Position numbers and translations under genes: made by a program
Source: Methylovorus menthalis
GTDB taxonomy: Bacteria > Pseudomonadota > Gammaproteobacteria > Burkholderiales > Methylophilaceae
NCBI RefSeq assembly: GCF_020523625.1
Contig: NZ_JAJAQH010000006.1
Location: 248,001 to 312,000, forward strand
DNA length: 64,000 nucleotides
Reading direction: 5' to 3'
In this document: piece by piece, positions 41,443 to 51,884 of the stretch
Layout: every line of letters starts with the position of its first letter
Numbering within the stretch: position 1 is the first letter of the stretch
The notes under the pieces: model-generated
What the model saw: only the letters and a program-made list of their open reading frames with translations
The model's database searches: none
Told to the model about the DNA's origin: nothing

Positions 41443-42729
41443 TTACAAGACCCAGCTATAAGCCACGCCCAGTGAATCCTGGTACATCTTGAGGTTGACG
41501 TCGCCACCCCCAAACGCGGCAGGAATGGAGCCATTACCCTTGATTTCGTTTTCAAAGGCATGGGTATAGCTGAATGACAGCTCGCTGCTATTGGCAAACT
41601 TCCAGGTAGCACCGAGGGAGACATGGTCTTCCACAACTGCCGGGGCCAGCGTATTGAACAAGGTCTGGCTGCTGGGGATGGGCTGGTTGACATGGTTATA
41701 CCCGGCGCGCAGGGTCAGTTGTTCGCTGTAGGCATACAGCGCGCCCAGTTTGAAGACGGTGGCATCTTTCCAGCCAAAGCCTGCGCCGTTATCCGTGCCT
41801 AGTTGCGCGGTAAAGAAGTTGGCGATGCTGGCGCCGACCGCATCGACCTCGCTATAGCGTATGCGCTGGATGTCGCCCGCCAGCGTGAGCGCAGGGGTGG
41901 CCTTGACGGCAATGCCCACGCCAAAGTTGGCGGGAATGTCAAAATCGCCCTGTTCGGCAAACAGGCCTTTGTAGCGGTCAAACCTGGTCATGTAGGTGCG
42001 TGTCTGGTAATGCGCACCCAGGGTCACCTGGTCGTTGATCTTGCCTTGCCAGCCAAGATGCAGGCCTGCGCCGTAGGAGCTGTCTGCGCCTTTATTGGTG
42101 ACATGGTCCGGCGATGATGAAAAGGAGCTATTGGCAAAGATTTGCAGGCCCTTGGCTTCAAAACGCTGATATGCCAGATTGAGGCCGATGCCCACGGATT
42201 GGGTCGGACTCAGTTTCCAGGCAATGGTGGGCGTGACGAAGGCCTGAATGAAATTGACCCCTACCCGGCTGCCGGTGTTGTTAAACAGGGGAAAGCCATT
42301 TTTGTAGTCGGTGTTCATGCCGCCATTGCCATACAGGGCGACACCGATGGTAGTGGTGTCATTCAGCTGCTTGCTGTAACCAAACTCCGGGATCAGAAAG
42401 TTCTTGGTGTCATTACCGTCGTACTTGCCATTGATGGGAGATGGGCTGCCCTCGATTTCAGCATCGCGTACCGGTCTGAACCAGGTGGCGCCAATATCGA
42501 GGCGATTGCCAATCGCTGTGAGGCCTGCCGGGTTGGATGCGATGCTCAAGGTGTCTTGCGGCAATGCAATCCCGACGCCGCCAGCGCCTTGTGCCTTGAC
42601 GCCATAGCCATGGGAAAAATAGCCATCGGTCGCATGGGCTTGGAGGGGAATGGCGGCGCCCAGGGCCAGCCAAAGTAAAGAAGACGAAGGGGCAGGCAAT
42701 GCCTTGAAAAGGTGATGTTGTTTTCTCAT
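41443..42729 (-). CDS. FadL/OmpP1-family outer-membrane channel
   Basis: This 428-residue protein has a signal peptide (ending about AHA). The mature start TDGYFSHGYGVKAQGAGGVGIALPQDTLSIASNPAGL is the FadL hatch region with its NPA motif. Alternating hydrophobic strands follow, ending in a Trp (AYSWVL) as in beta-barrels. The family moves hydrophobic compounds across the outer membrane. The substrate here is unknown. Confidence 0.9.
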   Translation of the reverse strand: MRKQHHLFKALPAPSSSLLWLALGAAIPLQAHATDGYFSHGYGVKAQGAGGVGIALPQDTLSIASNPAGLTAIGNRLDIGATWFRPVRDAEIEGSPSPINGKYDGNDTKNFLIPEFGYSKQLNDTTTIGVALYGNGGMNTDYKNGFPLFNNTGSRVGVNFIQAFVTPTIAWKLSPTQSVGIGLNLAYQRFEAKGLQIFANSSFSSSPDHVTNKGADSSYGAGLHLGWQGKINDQVTLGAHYQTRTYMTRFDRYKGLFAEQGDFDIPANFGVGIAVKATPALTLAGDIQRIRYSEVDAVGASIANFFTAQLGTDNGAGFGWKDATVFKLGALYAYSEQLTLRAGYNHVNQPIPSSQTLFNTLAPAVVEDHVSLGATWKFANSSELSFSYTHAFENEIKGNGSIPAAFGGGDVNLKMYQDSLGVAYSWVL

Positions 42730-42780: not shown

Positions 42781-42816
42781 GAAAAAAAAAGAGGCTAGTA
42801 CTTGCGTACTAGCCTC
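42781..42816 (-). terminator. Terminator of the cysTWA operon
   Basis: A perfect 11-bp stem (42791-42801 with 42806-42816) with a 4-base loop is followed on the minus strand by nine T. It lies just after the cysA stop. Confidence 0.92.
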
Positions 42817-42866
42817 CAGTCGTCTGGTTGGCCTGTGCTGTCAGGTCGGGTGTTTAGCTGGGGTGT

Positions 42867-43934
42867 TTAATTTGGCACATCCAGAAACACGCGAACATTG
42901 CGCGGCTGGATATACACCGCTTCACCCTGTTGCAGGGCCAGTTCGCGGAAGCGTTCACGGGTAAGCTCGGCTTCGACGATGCTCTGGTTATCCTGACGTT
43001 GCAGCTCTACGCGCACCAGCGGACCTATCGCATTGATATAGCTGACCACGGCGCTGAATGCGGGCTGGGTGCCGCGCTCGCGTAGCACTTCAATATCATG
43101 CGGACGAACGAAGGCATGCGCCGGCGTGTTGTCGGTCTCGTGATGGTCGTCGATATCCAGTGCCAGCGTATCGATATGCGCCTTGCCTGCATGCACGCGG
43201 CCATGGAACTGGTTAACGTTGCCGAGGAACTTGTAGACGAACGGCGATGCCGGTTGGTCATACACGTCCTGCGGGCTGCCAATCTGCTCGATATTGCCCT
43301 GGTTCATGACCACGATACGGTCTGCGACTTCCAGCGCCTCTTCCTGGTCGTGGGTCACAAATACACTGGTGATGTGCAGTTCGTCATGCAGGCGACGCAA
43401 CCAGCGACGCAAATCTTTGCGCACCTTCGCATCCAGCGCGCCAAATGGCTCATCCAGCAGCAGTACCTTGGGCTCCACTGCCAAGGCGCGGGCCAGGGCG
43501 ATACGCTGACGCTGACCGCCAGAGAGCTGCGGTGGATAACGGCCAGCCAGCCAGTCCAGCTGCACCAGCTCAAGCAGGGCATGCACGCGACGGTGGATTT
43601 CTGCTTCGGATGGACGTGTTTTGCGTGGGCGTACGCGCAGACCAAAGGCGACGTTTTCAAATACTGTCATGTGGCGGAACAGGGCGTAATGTTGGAAGAC
43701 AAAGCCGACTTCGCGTTCACGTACATCGCGGCTGGTGGCATCGCTCCCATGAAACAGAATGCTGCCTTCATCGGCGGCTTCCAGGCCGGCAATAATGCGC
43801 AGCAGCGTGGTTTTGCCGCAACCGGACGGGCCGAGCAAGGCCACAAGTTCACCTGTGGGAACATCCAGGTTGATGTTGTTCAGGGCATTGAATTTGCCGA
43901 AGCGTTTATGGATATTGCGAATTTCGATGCTCAT
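42867..43934 (-). CDS. cysA: Sulfate/thiosulfate ABC transporter ATPase
   Basis: This 355-residue ATPase energises sulfate import. Walker [13 protein letters not shown] (about residues 34-45), signature [15 protein letters not shown], Walker [13 protein letters not shown] and the switch His in [15 protein letters not shown] are present. A C-terminal TOBE-like domain follows (about residues 235-355). It is the last gene of cysT-cysW-cysA with an 11-base gap from cysW. Confidence 0.97.
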
Positions 43935-46761: not shown

Positions 46762-47745
46762 TCATTTTGCGTAAATTTGGTCAAAGATACCGCCATCAGC
46801 AAAATGTGTTTTTTGTGCTTTGGTCCAGCCACCGAATACTTCTTCAACAGTAAAGAGGTCAATCGGCTTGAAGTCGGCTTTATGCTTGGCGGCAACACTT
46901 TCCAGCTTGGGACGCAGGTAATGGCGCGCGGCGATTTCCTGACCTTCTTCTGAATACAGGTAATTCAGATATGCCTCGGAAACTGCACGGGTATTGCGCT
47001 TGTTGACGACTTTGTCGACGACGCTTACCGGATTCTCGGCAAGGATGCTGGATGACGGATACACCACGTCGAATTGATCATTGCCCAACTCCTTTTTGAT
47101 CAGAAACACTTCGTTTTCAAAGGTCAGCAGCACATCGCCAATCCCGCGTTGCGCAAAGGTCGTAGTGGCGCCACGGCCGCCGGTGTCCAGCACAGGCACA
47201 TTGCGGAACAGCTTGCCGACAAATTCTTTTGCCTTGTTTTCATCCGCGCCATTACGGACGGCATACCCCCATGCGGCAAGATAACTGTAGCGACCATTGC
47301 CGGAGGTCTTGGGGTTCGGCACTACGACGGCCACGCCTGGTTTTACCAGATCATTCCAGTCCTGGATTTTCTTGGGGTTGCCCTTGCGCACCAGGAATAC
47401 CGTGGTTGATGCGGTGGGGGAGCTGTTATAAGGCAGGCGTTTTTGCCAATCCTTGGGTATCAGCTTGCCGCGCTCGTAGAGAATATCAATGTCATTGCTC
47501 TGGTTCATGGTGATCACATCGGCCTCGAGTCCATCGGCCACGGCGCGGGCCTGCTTGCTAGAGCCGCCATGCGACTGGTTGATGGTGATTGTCTCGCCGG
47601 TTTTTTGTTTCCAGTAACTGGCAAAGGCAGGGTTGAAGTCCTTATAAAACTCGCGCGTCACATCGTAAGAAACATTCAGGATTGAGGTATCTGCCCAGGC
47701 AGATTGGGAAAACAGCAGGGCAATGATGGCGATGCGCTTGAACAT
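46762..47745 (-). CDS. sbp: Periplasmic sulfate-binding protein 1
   Basis: This 327-residue protein delivers sulfate to CysTWA. Signal peptide MFKRIAIIALLFSQSAWA, then the family blocks ILNVSYDVTREFYKDFN, INQSHGGSSKQARAV, NPKTSGNGRYSYLAAW and [24 protein letters not shown] start at 47745, where the signal peptide begins; the upstream frame has no ribosome site. It diverges from the serine acetyltransferase gene across a 310-base regulatory interval. Confidence 0.95.
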   Translation of the reverse strand: MFKRIAIIALLFSQSAWADTSILNVSYDVTREFYKDFNPAFASYWKQKTGETITINQSHGGSSKQARAVADGLEADVITMNQSNDIDILYERGKLIPKDWQKRLPYNSSPTASTTVFLVRKGNPKKIQDWNDLVKPGVAVVVPNPKTSGNGRYSYLAAWGYAVRNGADENKAKEFVGKLFRNVPVLDTGGRGATTTFAQRGIGDVLLTFENEVFLIKKELGNDQFDVVYPSSSILAENPVSVVDKVVNKRNTRAVSEAYLNYLYSEEGQEIAARHYLRPKLESVAAKHKADFKPIDLFTVEEVFGGWTKAQKTHFADGGIFDQIYAK

Positions 47746-47806
47746 GCGGGCTCCGTAAATGAATAAGTTGGAATGGACGCCATGATAAGCAAGCATTTAA
47801 ATAATG

Positions 47807-47817
47807 TAAAAGAATAT
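47807..47817. promoter_or_regulatory. AT-rich element shared by sulfur promoters
   Basis: TAAAAGAATAT occurs here, 62 bases upstream of sbp, and again at 55480-55490 upstream of the YezD-porin-sbp operon. Both sit in long AT-rich stretches of the kind bound by CysB upstream of cys genes. The link to CysB is inference. Confidence 0.35.
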
Positions 47818-47910
47818 AAAAATATATTTATATTCATAATATTTATTATGAATTGCCTCAATTGCCATGAAACAATGCATTTTTTAGCGTAGCTTTACTT
47901 CAATATAACC

Positions 47911-47939
47911 TTGCGGTTTCTTAAATAACTAAATAGAAT
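47911..47939 (+). promoter_or_regulatory. Candidate promoter of the cysE-encapsulin operon
   Basis: TTGCGG (47911-47916), a 17-base spacer and TAGAAT (47934-47939) resemble a sigma-70 promoter with a good minus 10 box and a weak minus 35 box, as expected for an activated gene. Transcription would start near 47946, at the edge of the first leader hairpin. Confidence 0.5.
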
Positions 47940-47945
47940 TAGCTT

Positions 47946-48030
47946 ATAACTGGTTGTTATAGCCAGTTGCTGACCGGACAACCGGAAGCCAGTGCGCCTC
48001 ATGTCGAGGCCGCTGGCTTTTTTGTTTTTA
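47946..48030 (+). promoter_or_regulatory. Structured leader with intrinsic terminator (attenuator candidate)
   Basis: Hairpin 1 is AACTGG / CCAGTT (47948-47953, 47963-47968). Hairpin 2 is CCGG-ACAA-CCGG (47974-47985), whose ACAA loop is complementary to TTGT in loop 1. A strong terminator stem, AAGCCAG...CTGGCTT with inner GCCTC / GAGGC (47986-48019), follows and ends in a T-rich run to 48029. AGCCAG occurs twice (47961-47966 and 47987-47992), and either copy can pair with CTGGCT at 48013-48018, giving mutually exclusive folds. No upstream gene needs a terminator here, because the neighbour is divergent. Confidence 0.6.
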
Positions 48031-48055
48031 GGGCCGCCGATTTGGGAATAACGAG

Positions 48056-49060
48056 ATGACCGATGCAGTGGATTTAACGGCAAGCCAACCCGTTGCGGAT
48101 TGGGATCTTGCCAGCATTGTGGATGCGCTTCGCACCGTGCGGCTTAATGCGCTGGAGCATCGCAAGCGCCGACAGAACCCGCCAAAACTCCCCTCACGTA
48201 TAGCGCTTGAGGCTATTGTTGATGGCCTGGCAGCAGCCTTGTTCCCCAACAGGCTGGGCTTGCCCGATTTAAAGGAAGACGGCCTCGATTATTTTGTGGG
48301 CCACACACTGGATGTCGCATTAAAAGACCTGCACACGCAAATTCGCCTTGAACTGGCGTTTGTATCCTCCCTCGATGCCGACAAGACGGATGCTGATATT
48401 CCTTCGGCGCGTGGCATTGTCAGCCAGTTTGCCGCTGCACTTCCCCAAATACGTCAGACCCTGGATACCGATATTCTCGCGGCCTATGAGGGTGACCCTG
48501 CCGCCCGCAGTGTTGATGAAGTGCTCGTGTGCTATCCGGGCATTACCGCCATCATTCACCATCGCCTTGCCCATCAGCTTTACAAGCTTGGTGTGCCGCT
48601 CGTCGCGCGCATGATTGCCGAGATTGCGCATTCGCGTACCGGGATTGATATCCATCCTGGCGCCACCATTGGGCATAGTTTCTTTGTCGATCATGGCACT
48701 GGCGTGGTGATCGGTGAGACCACCATCATCGGCAATCACGTTCGGCTTTATCAAGCCGTGACCCTTGGTGCAAAGCGCTTTCCTGCCGATGAAAGTGGAG
48801 TGCTGATCAAAGGCAATGCGCGCCATCCCATTGTTGAAGATGATGTCGTGGTGTATGCCGGAGCGACGATCCTGGGCCGCATCACCATCGGTCGCGGTTC
48901 CTCTATTGGTGGCAATGTCTGGCTGACCCACAGCGTGCCACCGGGCAGCAATATTACCCAGGCGCAAATGCGCAGCGGTGTGCTGCCTCTGCCTGAAGGC
49001 CAGATGGCTGCCAATGCCGTTCCTGGCGCTAATCCCACCGGGCCTGCCCAATATGGCTAG
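48056..49060 (+). CDS. cysE: Serine O-acetyltransferase (EpsC type)
   Basis: The 334-residue enzyme makes O-acetylserine, the acceptor for sulfide in cysteine synthesis. The C-terminal half is the left-handed beta-helix hexapeptide domain: IDIHPGATIGHSFFVDHGTGVVIGETTIIG, with the catalytic His/Asp in that stretch, then RHPIVEDDVVVYAGATILGRITIG. The N-terminal 170 residues are helical and longer than in CysE of enteric bacteria, as in EpsC proteins. It is the first gene of the encapsulin operon, 48 bases before the shell gene. SAT genes are known neighbours of family 2A encapsulins. Confidence 0.93.
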   Translation: MTDAVDLTASQPVADWDLASIVDALRTVRLNALEHRKRRQNPPKLPSRIALEAIVDGLAAALFPNRLGLPDLKEDGLDYFVGHTLDVALKDLHTQIRLELAFVSSLDADKTDADIPSARGIVSQFAAALPQIRQTLDTDILAAYEGDPAARSVDEVLVCYPGITAIIHHRLAHQLYKLGVPLVARMIAEIAHSRTGIDIHPGATIGHSFFVDHGTGVVIGETTIIGNHVRLYQAVTLGAKRFPADESGVLIKGNARHPIVEDDVVVYAGATILGRITIGRGSSIGGNVWLTHSVPPGSNITQAQMRSGVLPLPEGQMAANAVPGANPTGPAQYG

Positions 49061-49108: not shown

Positions 49109-50026
49109 ATGGCAGATATTCATGAAGGACAAACCGCACTTGGAGATGTAGCGGCCCGTACGCTAGCAAATGCCACCAAAACGGTGCCCATGCTCAGCAC
49201 GATTACACCGCGCTGGCTGGTGCATTTGCTGCAATGGGTGCCCGTAGAAGCCGGTATCTATCGCGTTAACAAGGCCAAGAATCCGAATGCGATTGAAGTG
49301 GATTGCTCCAACAAGGATGAGCGCGAGCTGCCAGCGACCTTTGTTGACTACGAAGAATGGGGCCGTGAGTATGTGTTGAACGCTGTGAATACGGTCGTGG
49401 ATGTGCACACCCGCGTATCCGATCTGTATAGCAGCCCACATAACCAGATCCGCGAACAGTTGCGTTTGACCATTGAAACCGTCAAAGAGCGTCAGGAAAG
49501 CGAACTGATCAACAATGCCGAATATGGTCTGTTGAACAATGTGGCTGACTCGCAAAAAGTGAAATCCCGCACTGGCGCTCCAACACCAGATGACTTGGAC
49601 GAGCTGATCAGCAAGGTATGGAAAGAGCCCGCGTTCTTCCTGGCGCATCCGCAAGCGATTGCTGCTTTTGGTCGCGAGTGCACTCGCCGTGGTGTACCTC
49701 CACCTACTGTTGCCATGTTTGGCTCGCAGTTCCTGACATGGCGTGGTATTCCGCTGATTCCTTGCGACAAGCTGAAGGTCACCAAAGGCAAAACCAATAT
49801 TCTGTTGTTGCGCACCGGTGAAAGCCGTCAGGGCGTGGTTGGTCTGTATCAGCCTAATTTGCCAGGTCAGCAAACCATGGGGTTGTCGGTGCGTTTCATG
49901 GGTATCAACCACAAGGCGATTGCCTCCTACCTCGTGTCGTTGTATTGCTCAGTCGCTGTTCTGACGGATGATGCGATTGCCGTGCTGGAGAATGTCAGCG
50001 TGGACAACTACTATGACTACAAGTAA
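49109..50026 (+). CDS. Family 2A encapsulin shell protein
   Basis: This 305-residue protein has the layout of SrpI-type encapsulins (HK97 phage-capsid fold). The N-terminal arm ALGDVAARTLANATKTVPMLSTITPRWL, the VEAGIYRVNK region, the E-loop-like VDCSNKDERELPATFVDYEEW and the A-domain end MGLSVRFMGINHKAIASYLVSLYCSVAVLTDDAIAVLENV are recognisable family blocks. Such proteins assemble into a T=1 compartment of about 25 nm. AGGAGATT precedes the ATG. The stop overlaps the cargo gene start by 14 bases, so shell and cargo are made together. Confidence 0.93.
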   Translation: MADIHEGQTALGDVAARTLANATKTVPMLSTITPRWLVHLLQWVPVEAGIYRVNKAKNPNAIEVDCSNKDERELPATFVDYEEWGREYVLNAVNTVVDVHTRVSDLYSSPHNQIREQLRLTIETVKERQESELINNAEYGLLNNVADSQKVKSRTGAPTPDDLDELISKVWKEPAFFLAHPQAIAAFGRECTRRGVPPPTVAMFGSQFLTWRGIPLIPCDKLKVTKGKTNILLLRTGESRQGVVGLYQPNLPGQQTMGLSVRFMGINHKAIASYLVSLYCSVAVLTDDAIAVLENVSVDNYYDYK

Positions 50027-51884
50027 TTTCAACGATCTTTCGGCATTTGAGCCGGAAGCCATTCTGGCCGCATTGCCGGGTGAGCATCCTCGCATGGCAG
50101 CAGGCCTGGCTGTTGGTCGTGCCGCGGCTGAGTCCGGGCATCTGGATGTAAGCGAGCTGGCACGTATCGCCAACGAGCTTTACGCTGAGGGGTTCCCTGC
50201 AGGGGCGGCTTTTGGCCAGGCCCCGGATGTTTACTCCACCACTGCACTGCCCGATAGCTCAGGTGCTGCTGCCGGTATCCGTACTGGCTCACCTGGCCCT
50301 GCAGTCCCCGTTAGCTCGCACCCTCATGCCTCAGCCGCTGGTCTTGAAAGTATCAACTTGTCCGAGACTTCGTTGCTGCCACCGCAGTTGGATATCGCAA
50401 GTGCAGCGGCTACGAACAGCGGTGGCCAATATCAATCCGCGATCAGTGTGCCCAATGGTGGGGAACTGGAGATCAGTCGTTTGCTCGGCAGCGTTGAGAT
50501 CCCCTATGCGGGCGATTTGCAGCATTTGCTGACGTCCTTGAGCGCGCCGGCATCCGCGGCGAGCGCCCAGCCAACCGCCAGTCCGTATTACTTTTTGCAG
50601 GGTGCCTCGGTCAATTCGCTGAATCCTGGCGTACAACATGGCGGCGCGTTAGCACCTTCTGCGCATCCGCCCTTTGATGCCAATCTGGTACGCAAGGATT
50701 TCCCCATTCTGCGTGAGCAAGTGAATGGCCGTCCACTCATCTGGCTGGACAACGCGGCTACCACGCAAAAGCCCCAAGTCGTCATCGACCGTCTGGCGTA
50801 TTTTTACCAGCATGAAAACTCCAATATTCACCGTGCTGCCCATGAATTGGCTGCCCGTGCAACCGATGCATATGAAGAGGCGCGCGAAACCGTGCGTCGA
50901 TTCATCAATGCGCCATCGGTCAATAATGTGGTGTTTGTCCGTGGAACGACGGAAGCGATTAATCTGGTAGCGAAGACTTGGGGCAAGAAGCATTTGCGCG
51001 AGGGCGACGAGATCCTGATTTCGCATCTGGAGCATCATGCCAATATCGTGCCCTGGCAGCAGTTGTGCCAGGAAACCGGAGCCAGGCTGCGTGTGGCCCC
51101 GGTGGATGATAGCGGCCAGGTGTTGCTCGATGAATACCAGAAGTTGCTGACTTCGCGTACCAAGCTGGTGTCATTCACCCAGGTTTCCAATGCACTGGGA
51201 ACCGTGACGCCTGCGCGTGAAATGATCCAGATGGCCCATGCGGCAGGGGCAAAGGTTCTGCTGGATGGCGCACAGTCGGTATCGCACATGCGTAGTGATG
51301 TGACGGCTCTGGATTGCGACTTTTTCGTGTTCTCTGGTCACAAGGTATTTGGCCCGACTGGCATTGGCGCGCTCTATGGCAAGGCCGATGTGCTGGCAGA
51401 GATGCCCGCATGGCAAGGTGGCGGCAATATGATTCAGGATGTCACGTTTGAAAAAACCGTGTATCACGAAGCCCCTGCCAAGTTTGAGGCGGGCACGGGA
51501 AATATTGCGGATGCCGTTGGCATGGGGGCTGCGCTGGAATATGTGGAGCGTCTAGGCATCGACAATATTGCGCGTTATGAGCATGATCTGTTGGTGTATG
51601 CCACCGCGGCGATGTGCAAGGTGCCGGGCTTGCGTTTGATTGGTACCGCCCGTGAAAAGGCCAGTGTGCTGTCCTTCAGCTTGCCGGGGTATCGGAGCGA
51701 GGAAGTGGGGGCCGCCTTGAATGAAGAGGGCATTGCTGTCCGTTCCGGACATCATTGCGCCCAGCCGATTTTGCGCCGATTTGGTGTGGAAACGACAGTA
51801 CGGCCTTCATTGGCGTTTTACAACACCGCCCAGGAAGTGGACGTCATGGTGGATGTATTGCAAAAGCTGGCGCGTACCCGATAA
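50013..51884 (+). CDS. Encapsulated cysteine desulfurase (SufS-like) with long N-terminal targeting region
   Basis: This 623-residue protein has about 225 N-terminal residues rich in Ala, Ser, Gly and Pro, with a short helical block at the start (AFEPEAILAALPGEHPRMAAG). In family 2A systems this is the disordered segment that loads the enzyme into the shell. The rest is a type II cysteine desulfurase: FDANLVRKDFPIL, WLDNAATTQKP, HRAAHELAARAT, the PLP lysine in FSGHKVFGPTGIGALYG and the persulfide cysteine in VRSGHHCAQPILRRFG. It removes sulfur from cysteine to give alanine and bound sulfur. I start at 50013, where the targeting region begins and the ATG overlaps the shell gene. Confidence 0.93.
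   Translation: MTTSNFNDLSAFEPEAILAALPGEHPRMAAGLAVGRAAAESGHLDVSELARIANELYAEGFPAGAAFGQAPDVYSTTALPDSSGAAAGIRTGSPGPAVPVSSHPHASAAGLESINLSETSLLPPQLDIASAAATNSGGQYQSAISVPNGGELEISRLLGSVEIPYAGDLQHLLTSLSAPASAASAQPTASPYYFLQGASVNSLNPGVQHGGALAPSAHPPFDANLVRKDFPILREQVNGRPLIWLDNAATTQKPQVVIDRLAYFYQHENSNIHRAAHELAARATDAYEEARETVRRFINAPSVNNVVFVRGTTEAINLVAKTWGKKHLREGDEILISHLEHHANIVPWQQLCQETGARLRVAPVDDSGQVLLDEYQKLLTSRTKLVSFTQVSNALGTVTPAREMIQMAHAAGAKVLLDGAQSVSHMRSDVTALDCDFFVFSGHKVFGPTGIGALYGKADVLAEMPAWQGGGNMIQDVTFEKTVYHEAPAKFEAGTGNIADAVGMGAALEYVERLGIDNIARYEHDLLVYATAAMCKVPGLRLIGTAREKASVLSFSLPGYRSEEVGAALNEEGIAVRSGHHCAQPILRRFGVETTVRPSLAFYNTAQEVDVMVDVLQKLARTR

Follow-up and report, generated by a model that had tools for sequence, protein, structure and literature searches.

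The leader of the operon encoding a serine O-acetyltransferase (SAT), a family 2A encapsulin and its cargo cysteine desulfurase in Methylovorus menthalis contains what is, as judged from sequence comparisons, a real conserved cis-regulatory RNA, probably of an unrecognised class of RNA switches that turn sulfur genes on. That this RNA is a cis-acting terminator/antiterminator switch, and that its input is the sulfur (cysteine) status, are two propositions that we hold, each of them, with high confidence. We also consider it likely that it functions as a sulfur-starvation antitermination element, in which a signal would stabilise a short hairpin and the polymerase would pass.

The leader of the SAT-encapsulin operon

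The features of this leader and its surroundings are given below for the window, i.e. the whole stretch of 64,000 nucleotides that was analysed.

46762-47796, minus strand: sulfate-binding-protein-like gene, divergent, upstream of the leader
47911-47916 and 47934-47939, plus strand: promoter-like TTGCGG and TAGAAT, separated by 17 nt
47939-47943, plus strand: UUAGC, able to pair with GCUGA (47969-47973), a pairing formed in the minimum free energy (MFE) structure
47948-47968, plus strand: hairpin 1 (AACTGGTTGTTATAGCCAGTT), genus-specific
47969-47989, plus strand: conserved putative antiterminator hairpin, identified by its pairing and by double changes in alignments
47987-48018, plus strand: intrinsic terminator stem, AGCCAGTG...CGCTGGCT, whose first 3 nt are common to the antiterminator
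48019-48029, plus strand: terminator U-tract, from the sequence
48056-49060, plus strand: SAT of the EpsC/CysE type, first gene of the operon (NCBIfam NF041874, above cut-off)
49109-50026, plus strand: family 2A encapsulin shell protein (NF041162, E 5e-164; Pfam SrpI-like)
50010-51884, plus strand: encapsulin cargo cysteine desulfurase (NF041166, E 1.5e-274)

The original prediction had placed a strong terminator in this 5' leader, behind a gene that is divergent, and both statements hold. It had also described TTGCGG-17-TAGAAT as promoter-like: the sequence and the spacing are correct, but the match is weak and does not figure among those of a consensus promoter scan. The region 47938-48030 folds with a free energy of -42.7 kcal/mol, far more stable than shuffled sequences (z -6.2). 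When the leader of the window is folded in isolation, the MFE structure is the terminator state, the GCU being paired with the upstream UUAGC.

A hairpin that shares one arm with the terminator

The conserved unit extends from 47969 to 48029 and consists of a 21-nt hairpin followed by the terminator. The 5' part of the hairpin is made of GCU (47969-47971), GA (47972-47973) and the P2 arm CCGG (47974-47977); its 3' part, of the loop ACAA (47978-47981), the second CCGG (47982-47985), a single A (47986) and AGC (47987-47989). As this last arm, AGC, doubles as the first arm of the terminator, the hairpin and the full terminator are mutually exclusive.

The alignment of 45 Methylophilaceae leaders displays an invariant core, GCYGA-(4 bp)-NNNN-(4 bp)-AAGCC, which continues without gaps into the terminator. 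In every true instance the A-RGC that follows P2 can pair with the GCY that precedes it, giving a longer hairpin—a 3-bp outer stem, a GA/A internal loop, the 4-bp P2 and a 4-nt loop, and RGC is at the same time the foot of the terminator. Among 104 sequences P2 is paired at 99.8%, with three of its four pairs doubly changed, the extended antiterminator hairpin at 99.3%, and the terminator stem at 94.7%, with double changes at 8 of 11 pairs. In an alignment of 55 diverse sequences, some of whose Paenibacillus rows were picked by a scan that required pairing, the antiterminator hairpin is paired at 98.4% and doubly changed at six of seven pairs; none of 500 shuffles was as good, and controls in which the arms were slid drop to 11-56%. 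The test was repeated on Paenibacillus instances found with model R2, which was built without the outer stem: 23 of the 30 arm pairs are complementary, versus a mean of 16.6 and a maximum of 21 when the arms are permuted (0 of 2000 permutations). The outer arms encountered are GCU/AGC, GCC/GGC, GCU/GGC, GUU/AAC, GUU/GAC, GUC/GAC, ACU/AGU and UCC/GGA. A general form of the element, for comparison with other leaders, is GNY-GA-CCRG-NNNN-CYGG-A-RNC with a terminator after it. The GA/A internal loop stays constant while both stems vary, and the apical loop varies as well (ACAA, ACCA, ATAA etc.). With just 3 bp the outer stem is short, and six Proteobacteria instances carry a C-A mismatch in it (GCC/AGC).

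Covariation in the leaders of homologous SAT-encapsulin operons had been proposed as a check, and a conserved structure with covariation is indeed what they contain. The switching layout first imagined, on the other hand, survives in part: the attenuator idea stands, but the conserved competition is that of GCY for RGC across P2. The two hairpins predicted ahead of the terminator exist, as do the complementary TTGT and ACAA loops and the two AGCCAG copies said to compete for CTGGCT. However, only the three genomes of the window's genus (L001-L003) have hairpin 1, its TTGT loop and the first AGCCAG copy; the remaining leaders of the alignment lack them, so that neither the loop-loop contact nor the AGCCAG competition can be the conserved mechanism, and we rejected the kissing loops and double AGCCAG in that role. 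Other readings were also set aside: a pairing of GCY with the GGC of the terminator 3' arm does not covary; kink-turn and CsrA (GGA) sites fit, by eye, neither the consensus nor its variation; and pattern-scan matches lacking GCY before GA are due to chance.

The pairing between UUAGC and GCUGA is retained as a local refinement at most. Over 44 Methylophilaceae leaders 80.5% of the cells pair, without double changes, and it is absent from the other lineages; it is possibly a lineage-specific anti-antiterminator, acting as an extra brake in Methylophilaceae.

A second copy in the window

The window contains a second copy, which the original prediction did not include. It spans 42832-42782 on the minus strand, between cysA and a FadL-like gene:

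42867-43934, minus strand: CysA, sulfate ABC transporter ATPase (Pfam CysA_C_terminal), upstream of the second copy
42812-42832, minus strand: second putative antiterminator hairpin, GCC/AA/CCAG/ACGA/CTGG/A/GGC (model R2, E 2.9e-5; E-values from short-calibrated models are rough)
42782-42816, minus strand: its terminator (GAGGCTAGTACGCAAGTACTAGCCTC followed by 9 U)
41443-42729, minus strand: FadL/TodX-like outer-membrane transporter (Pfam PF03349, E 5e-34), downstream of the second copy

When the two strands of the window were scanned under strict structural criteria, admitting any dinucleotide at the GA position, five matches were returned, of which two only—the operon leader copy and this one—combine GA or AA with a proper terminator. 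The order cysA, element, FadL-like gene recurs in Methylobacillus (L066, L135). Lying between codirectional genes, the second copy could act partly as an ordinary operon terminator. The FadL-like protein beside it may be a porin for sulfur compounds.

Distribution and downstream genes

The unit precedes the SAT-encapsulin operon in 46 of 187 Methylophilaceae genomes, distributed over 14 of 24 genera; the matches cover only window positions about 47960-48030. The gene that follows is nearly always SAT, and in two loci (L014, L041) the unit is placed between SAT and encapsulin. A search of 399 genomes of the order with model R1 brought up no true relative elsewhere. In a class-level sample the same model gave two strong matches, both in one Methylococcales genome (G707). 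The unit is carried by 76 of 201 Methylococcales genomes, some of which have as many as four copies, before cysK, SAT, encapsulin, cysJ, a sigma-54 activator, OsmC-like and FadL-like genes; one set counts cysK 59 times, SAT 35 times and encapsulin 7 times, duplicates included, as the same species may be reached via two collections. The sigma-54 activator gene is preceded by the element in seven Methylococcales loci (L144, L156, L168, L214, L239, L241, L243), which suggests a regulator under sulfur control. Before cysK, decayed copies that have kept the terminator and lost the core are also found in Methylococcales (L254, L261, L259); behind L254 and L261 it is a second cysK.

Two Paenibacillus matches of the pattern scan pointed the search to Bacillota. 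The element was found in 33 of 240 genomes of a Bacilli sample, in 14 of 199 genomes of a Bacillota sample, and in 28 of 37 genomes of one Bacillota genus at a loose cut-off that admits false matches. The downstream genes are there ssuA (six Bacilli loci: L350, L352, L355, L357, L370, L376), ssuE, ssuD, tauD, cysH, cysP, sat, sbp, metN, metQ, those of an O-acetylhomoserine sulfhydrylase and an arylsulfatase-like protein, and others. Some targets—an MFS exporter, NRPS, NifX-like and CobW-like genes—are without clear link to sulfur; the last three (L332, L388, L389) may hint at the ligand. In one cysH leader (L364, 1501-1888, minus strand) the element is preceded by an S-box SAM riboswitch, and the two possibly form a two-input leader. 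Pairs of complete units in tandem, with one terminator per unit, also occur, in G976 (L237, 965-1094, 78 nt apart) and at G1526:C1:1948420-1948572.

Outside Methylophilaceae and Methylococcales, the matches in a sample drawn from the whole phylum Proteobacteria were nothing but plain terminators. The distribution is thus patchy, which suggests horizontal transfer. The association with sulfur genes is near-exclusive and spans two phyla.

Comparison with known elements

The original prediction could not assign the leader to a named class, and the Rfam search agrees: none of the Rfam 15 covariance models matched the element at its gathering cut-off, and window positions 47800-48100 gave no match even at E 10. 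The T-box model, which includes the specifier and the antiterminator T-box sequence, did not match the element. Guanidine-II riboswitches have two hairpins with ACGR loops; each unit here has one hairpin, with loops such as ACAA, ACCA or ATAA. Like SAM-I (S-box) riboswitches the element would control sulfur genes by transcription attenuation; unlike it, SAM-I has an aptamer of about 105 nt and is an OFF switch for SAM, and this aptamer is absent from the window and, among the element leaders, present only in L364. The RAT hairpins of BglG/LicT are similarly short, have asymmetric internal loops and overlap the 5' arm of a terminator, but they differ in sequence, depend on PTS-regulated antiterminator proteins and precede sugar genes.

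A comparable architecture is that of the compact HMP-PP (thiS motif) riboswitch, whose aptamer is embedded in an intrinsic terminator and whose metabolite causes read-through (PMC6478431). Here too the terminator houses the alternative structure: its foot is at the same time the 3' arm of the outer stem, and the alternative fold would break the terminator stem near the U-tract. By contrast the HMP-PP fold is longer, pseudoknotted and of another sequence, and it belongs to thiamin genes where the element precedes sulfur genes.

The description of the 'ABC-leader' (PMC2965389, 2010, Fig. 4d) is that of an unclassified attenuator before an alkanesulfonate transporter operon of bacilli. It shares with the element a premature terminator and an antiterminator ahead of bacilli sulfonate-transport genes, as at the six ssuA loci, but as described there it concerns one operon type only, and the two are compared by description alone; the ABC-leader is possibly the same element seen at one site. 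We did not find the element described in the literature searched, which comprised main texts. Likewise, a keyword search of five papers on candidate RNAs (PMC11109978, PMC8632094, PMC6429828, PMC2864571, PMC7266159), limited in the same way, found no such motif named; PBC-10, as it appears in PMC6429828, may be a relative.

Proposed mechanism and alternatives

Computed for 188 instances, the energy difference averages 3.3 kcal/mol in favour of the terminator state, and premature termination would therefore be the default: the terminator folds and transcription ends before the operon. Such a gap could be closed by a bound ligand or protein. The short hairpin could fold soon after the transcript starts. 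Under sulfur shortage, the signal would bind the GA/A internal loop and hold the outer stem shut; the closed stem would open the terminator foot adjoining the U-tract, and RNA polymerase would then read into the SAT-encapsulin-cysteine desulfurase operon. We infer the ON direction under starvation, as well as what the signal is and its nature, metabolite or protein. The encapsulin SrpI is induced by sulfur starvation (PMC8049743).

The original prediction had left the choice between a riboswitch and a protein-controlled attenuator tied to sulfur, and in this general form it is well supported by the covarying structure, the internal terminator and the sulfur genes. Whether the hairpin binds a metabolite directly, i.e. 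is a riboswitch, is for us an even question. O-acetylserine is the usual starvation signal; as the bound metabolite, taken by itself, it is rather unlikely. The fuller reading, in which the GA/A hairpin of about 21 nt would be an ON-type riboswitch class common to Bacillota and methylotrophic Proteobacteria, binding directly a starvation metabolite such as O-acetylserine or another intermediate of the cysteine pathway, is tentative, a little short of an even chance.

The best alternative keeps the same antiterminator hairpin but assigns its closing to an RNA-binding protein, perhaps a sulfur enzyme or a regulator dedicated to it, instead of a metabolite, in the way that BglG/LicT proteins act on RAT hairpins. 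The small size of the conserved element (21 nt) and its variable apical loop are what a protein site would show, an overlap with a terminator arm is also found in RAT hairpins, and the same possibility is raised for the ABC-leaders in their description in PMC2965389. On the other hand, the element is common to distant Bacillota and methylotrophic Proteobacteria, so that the partner must have moved along with it or be universal, and an unsystematic look beside the copies did not notice its gene. We regard this protein as a serious possibility, if a less probable one than direct metabolite binding.

Ordinary terminators, or stand-alone small RNAs, that would precede sulfur genes by chance seem improbable. 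Some matches of models R1, R2 and R3 are certainly plain terminators (L240, L263, L264 and most of the phylum matches), and these were discarded. The true instances, by contrast, are sense-oriented before many unrelated families of sulfur genes, the upstream gene is often divergent, and termination has no need of the GCY-GA...A-RGC part.

P2 and the outer arms also form an inverted repeat, and operators covary too, so that the hairpin could be incidental to a DNA site for a CymR- or CysB-like regulator. In the Bacilli instances (L278-L398), the sequence immediately upstream, near the promoter, is enriched in AAACCGAT and TCGGAAT boxes; we take them to be CymR-like, as a lead only. However, these boxes are distinct from the repeat, which is asymmetric (GA, 2 nt, on one side; A, 1 nt, on the other) and always adjoins a terminator with an arm in common, and the terminator that follows shows covariation of its own. 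An operator is thus very improbable; boxes and element together rather suggest a double control in Bacilli, of initiation and of termination.

Of the 196 motif instances, 49 have a promoter scoring at least 10 of 12 in their upstream region, as compared with 1 of 196 shuffles; the distance from promoter to motif is mostly 10-70 nt, which places the unit near the RNA 5' end. Control by charged tRNA, through T-box-like sensing of tRNA-Cys or a cysteine-rich leader peptide, is known for cysteine and methionine genes such as these, but it hardly deserves credit here: Rfam gave no T-box match, and neither a specifier loop nor a leader peptide would have much room.

Significance

Explanations of how sulfur and cysteine genes are controlled usually invoke proteins (CysB, CymR), S-boxes and T-boxes. 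For the sulfonate genes of B. subtilis the control includes 'termination', in the words of a title (van der Ploeg 2001, cited in PMC10708946). The element would define a minimal sequence for this 'termination' half. It would also provide a very small ON-type switch, usable as a sensor of sulfur status, and, if the riboswitch reading is true, its aptamer would be among the smallest natural ones. If our interpretation is true, sulfur and cysteine control would share an RNA layer across two bacterial phyla.
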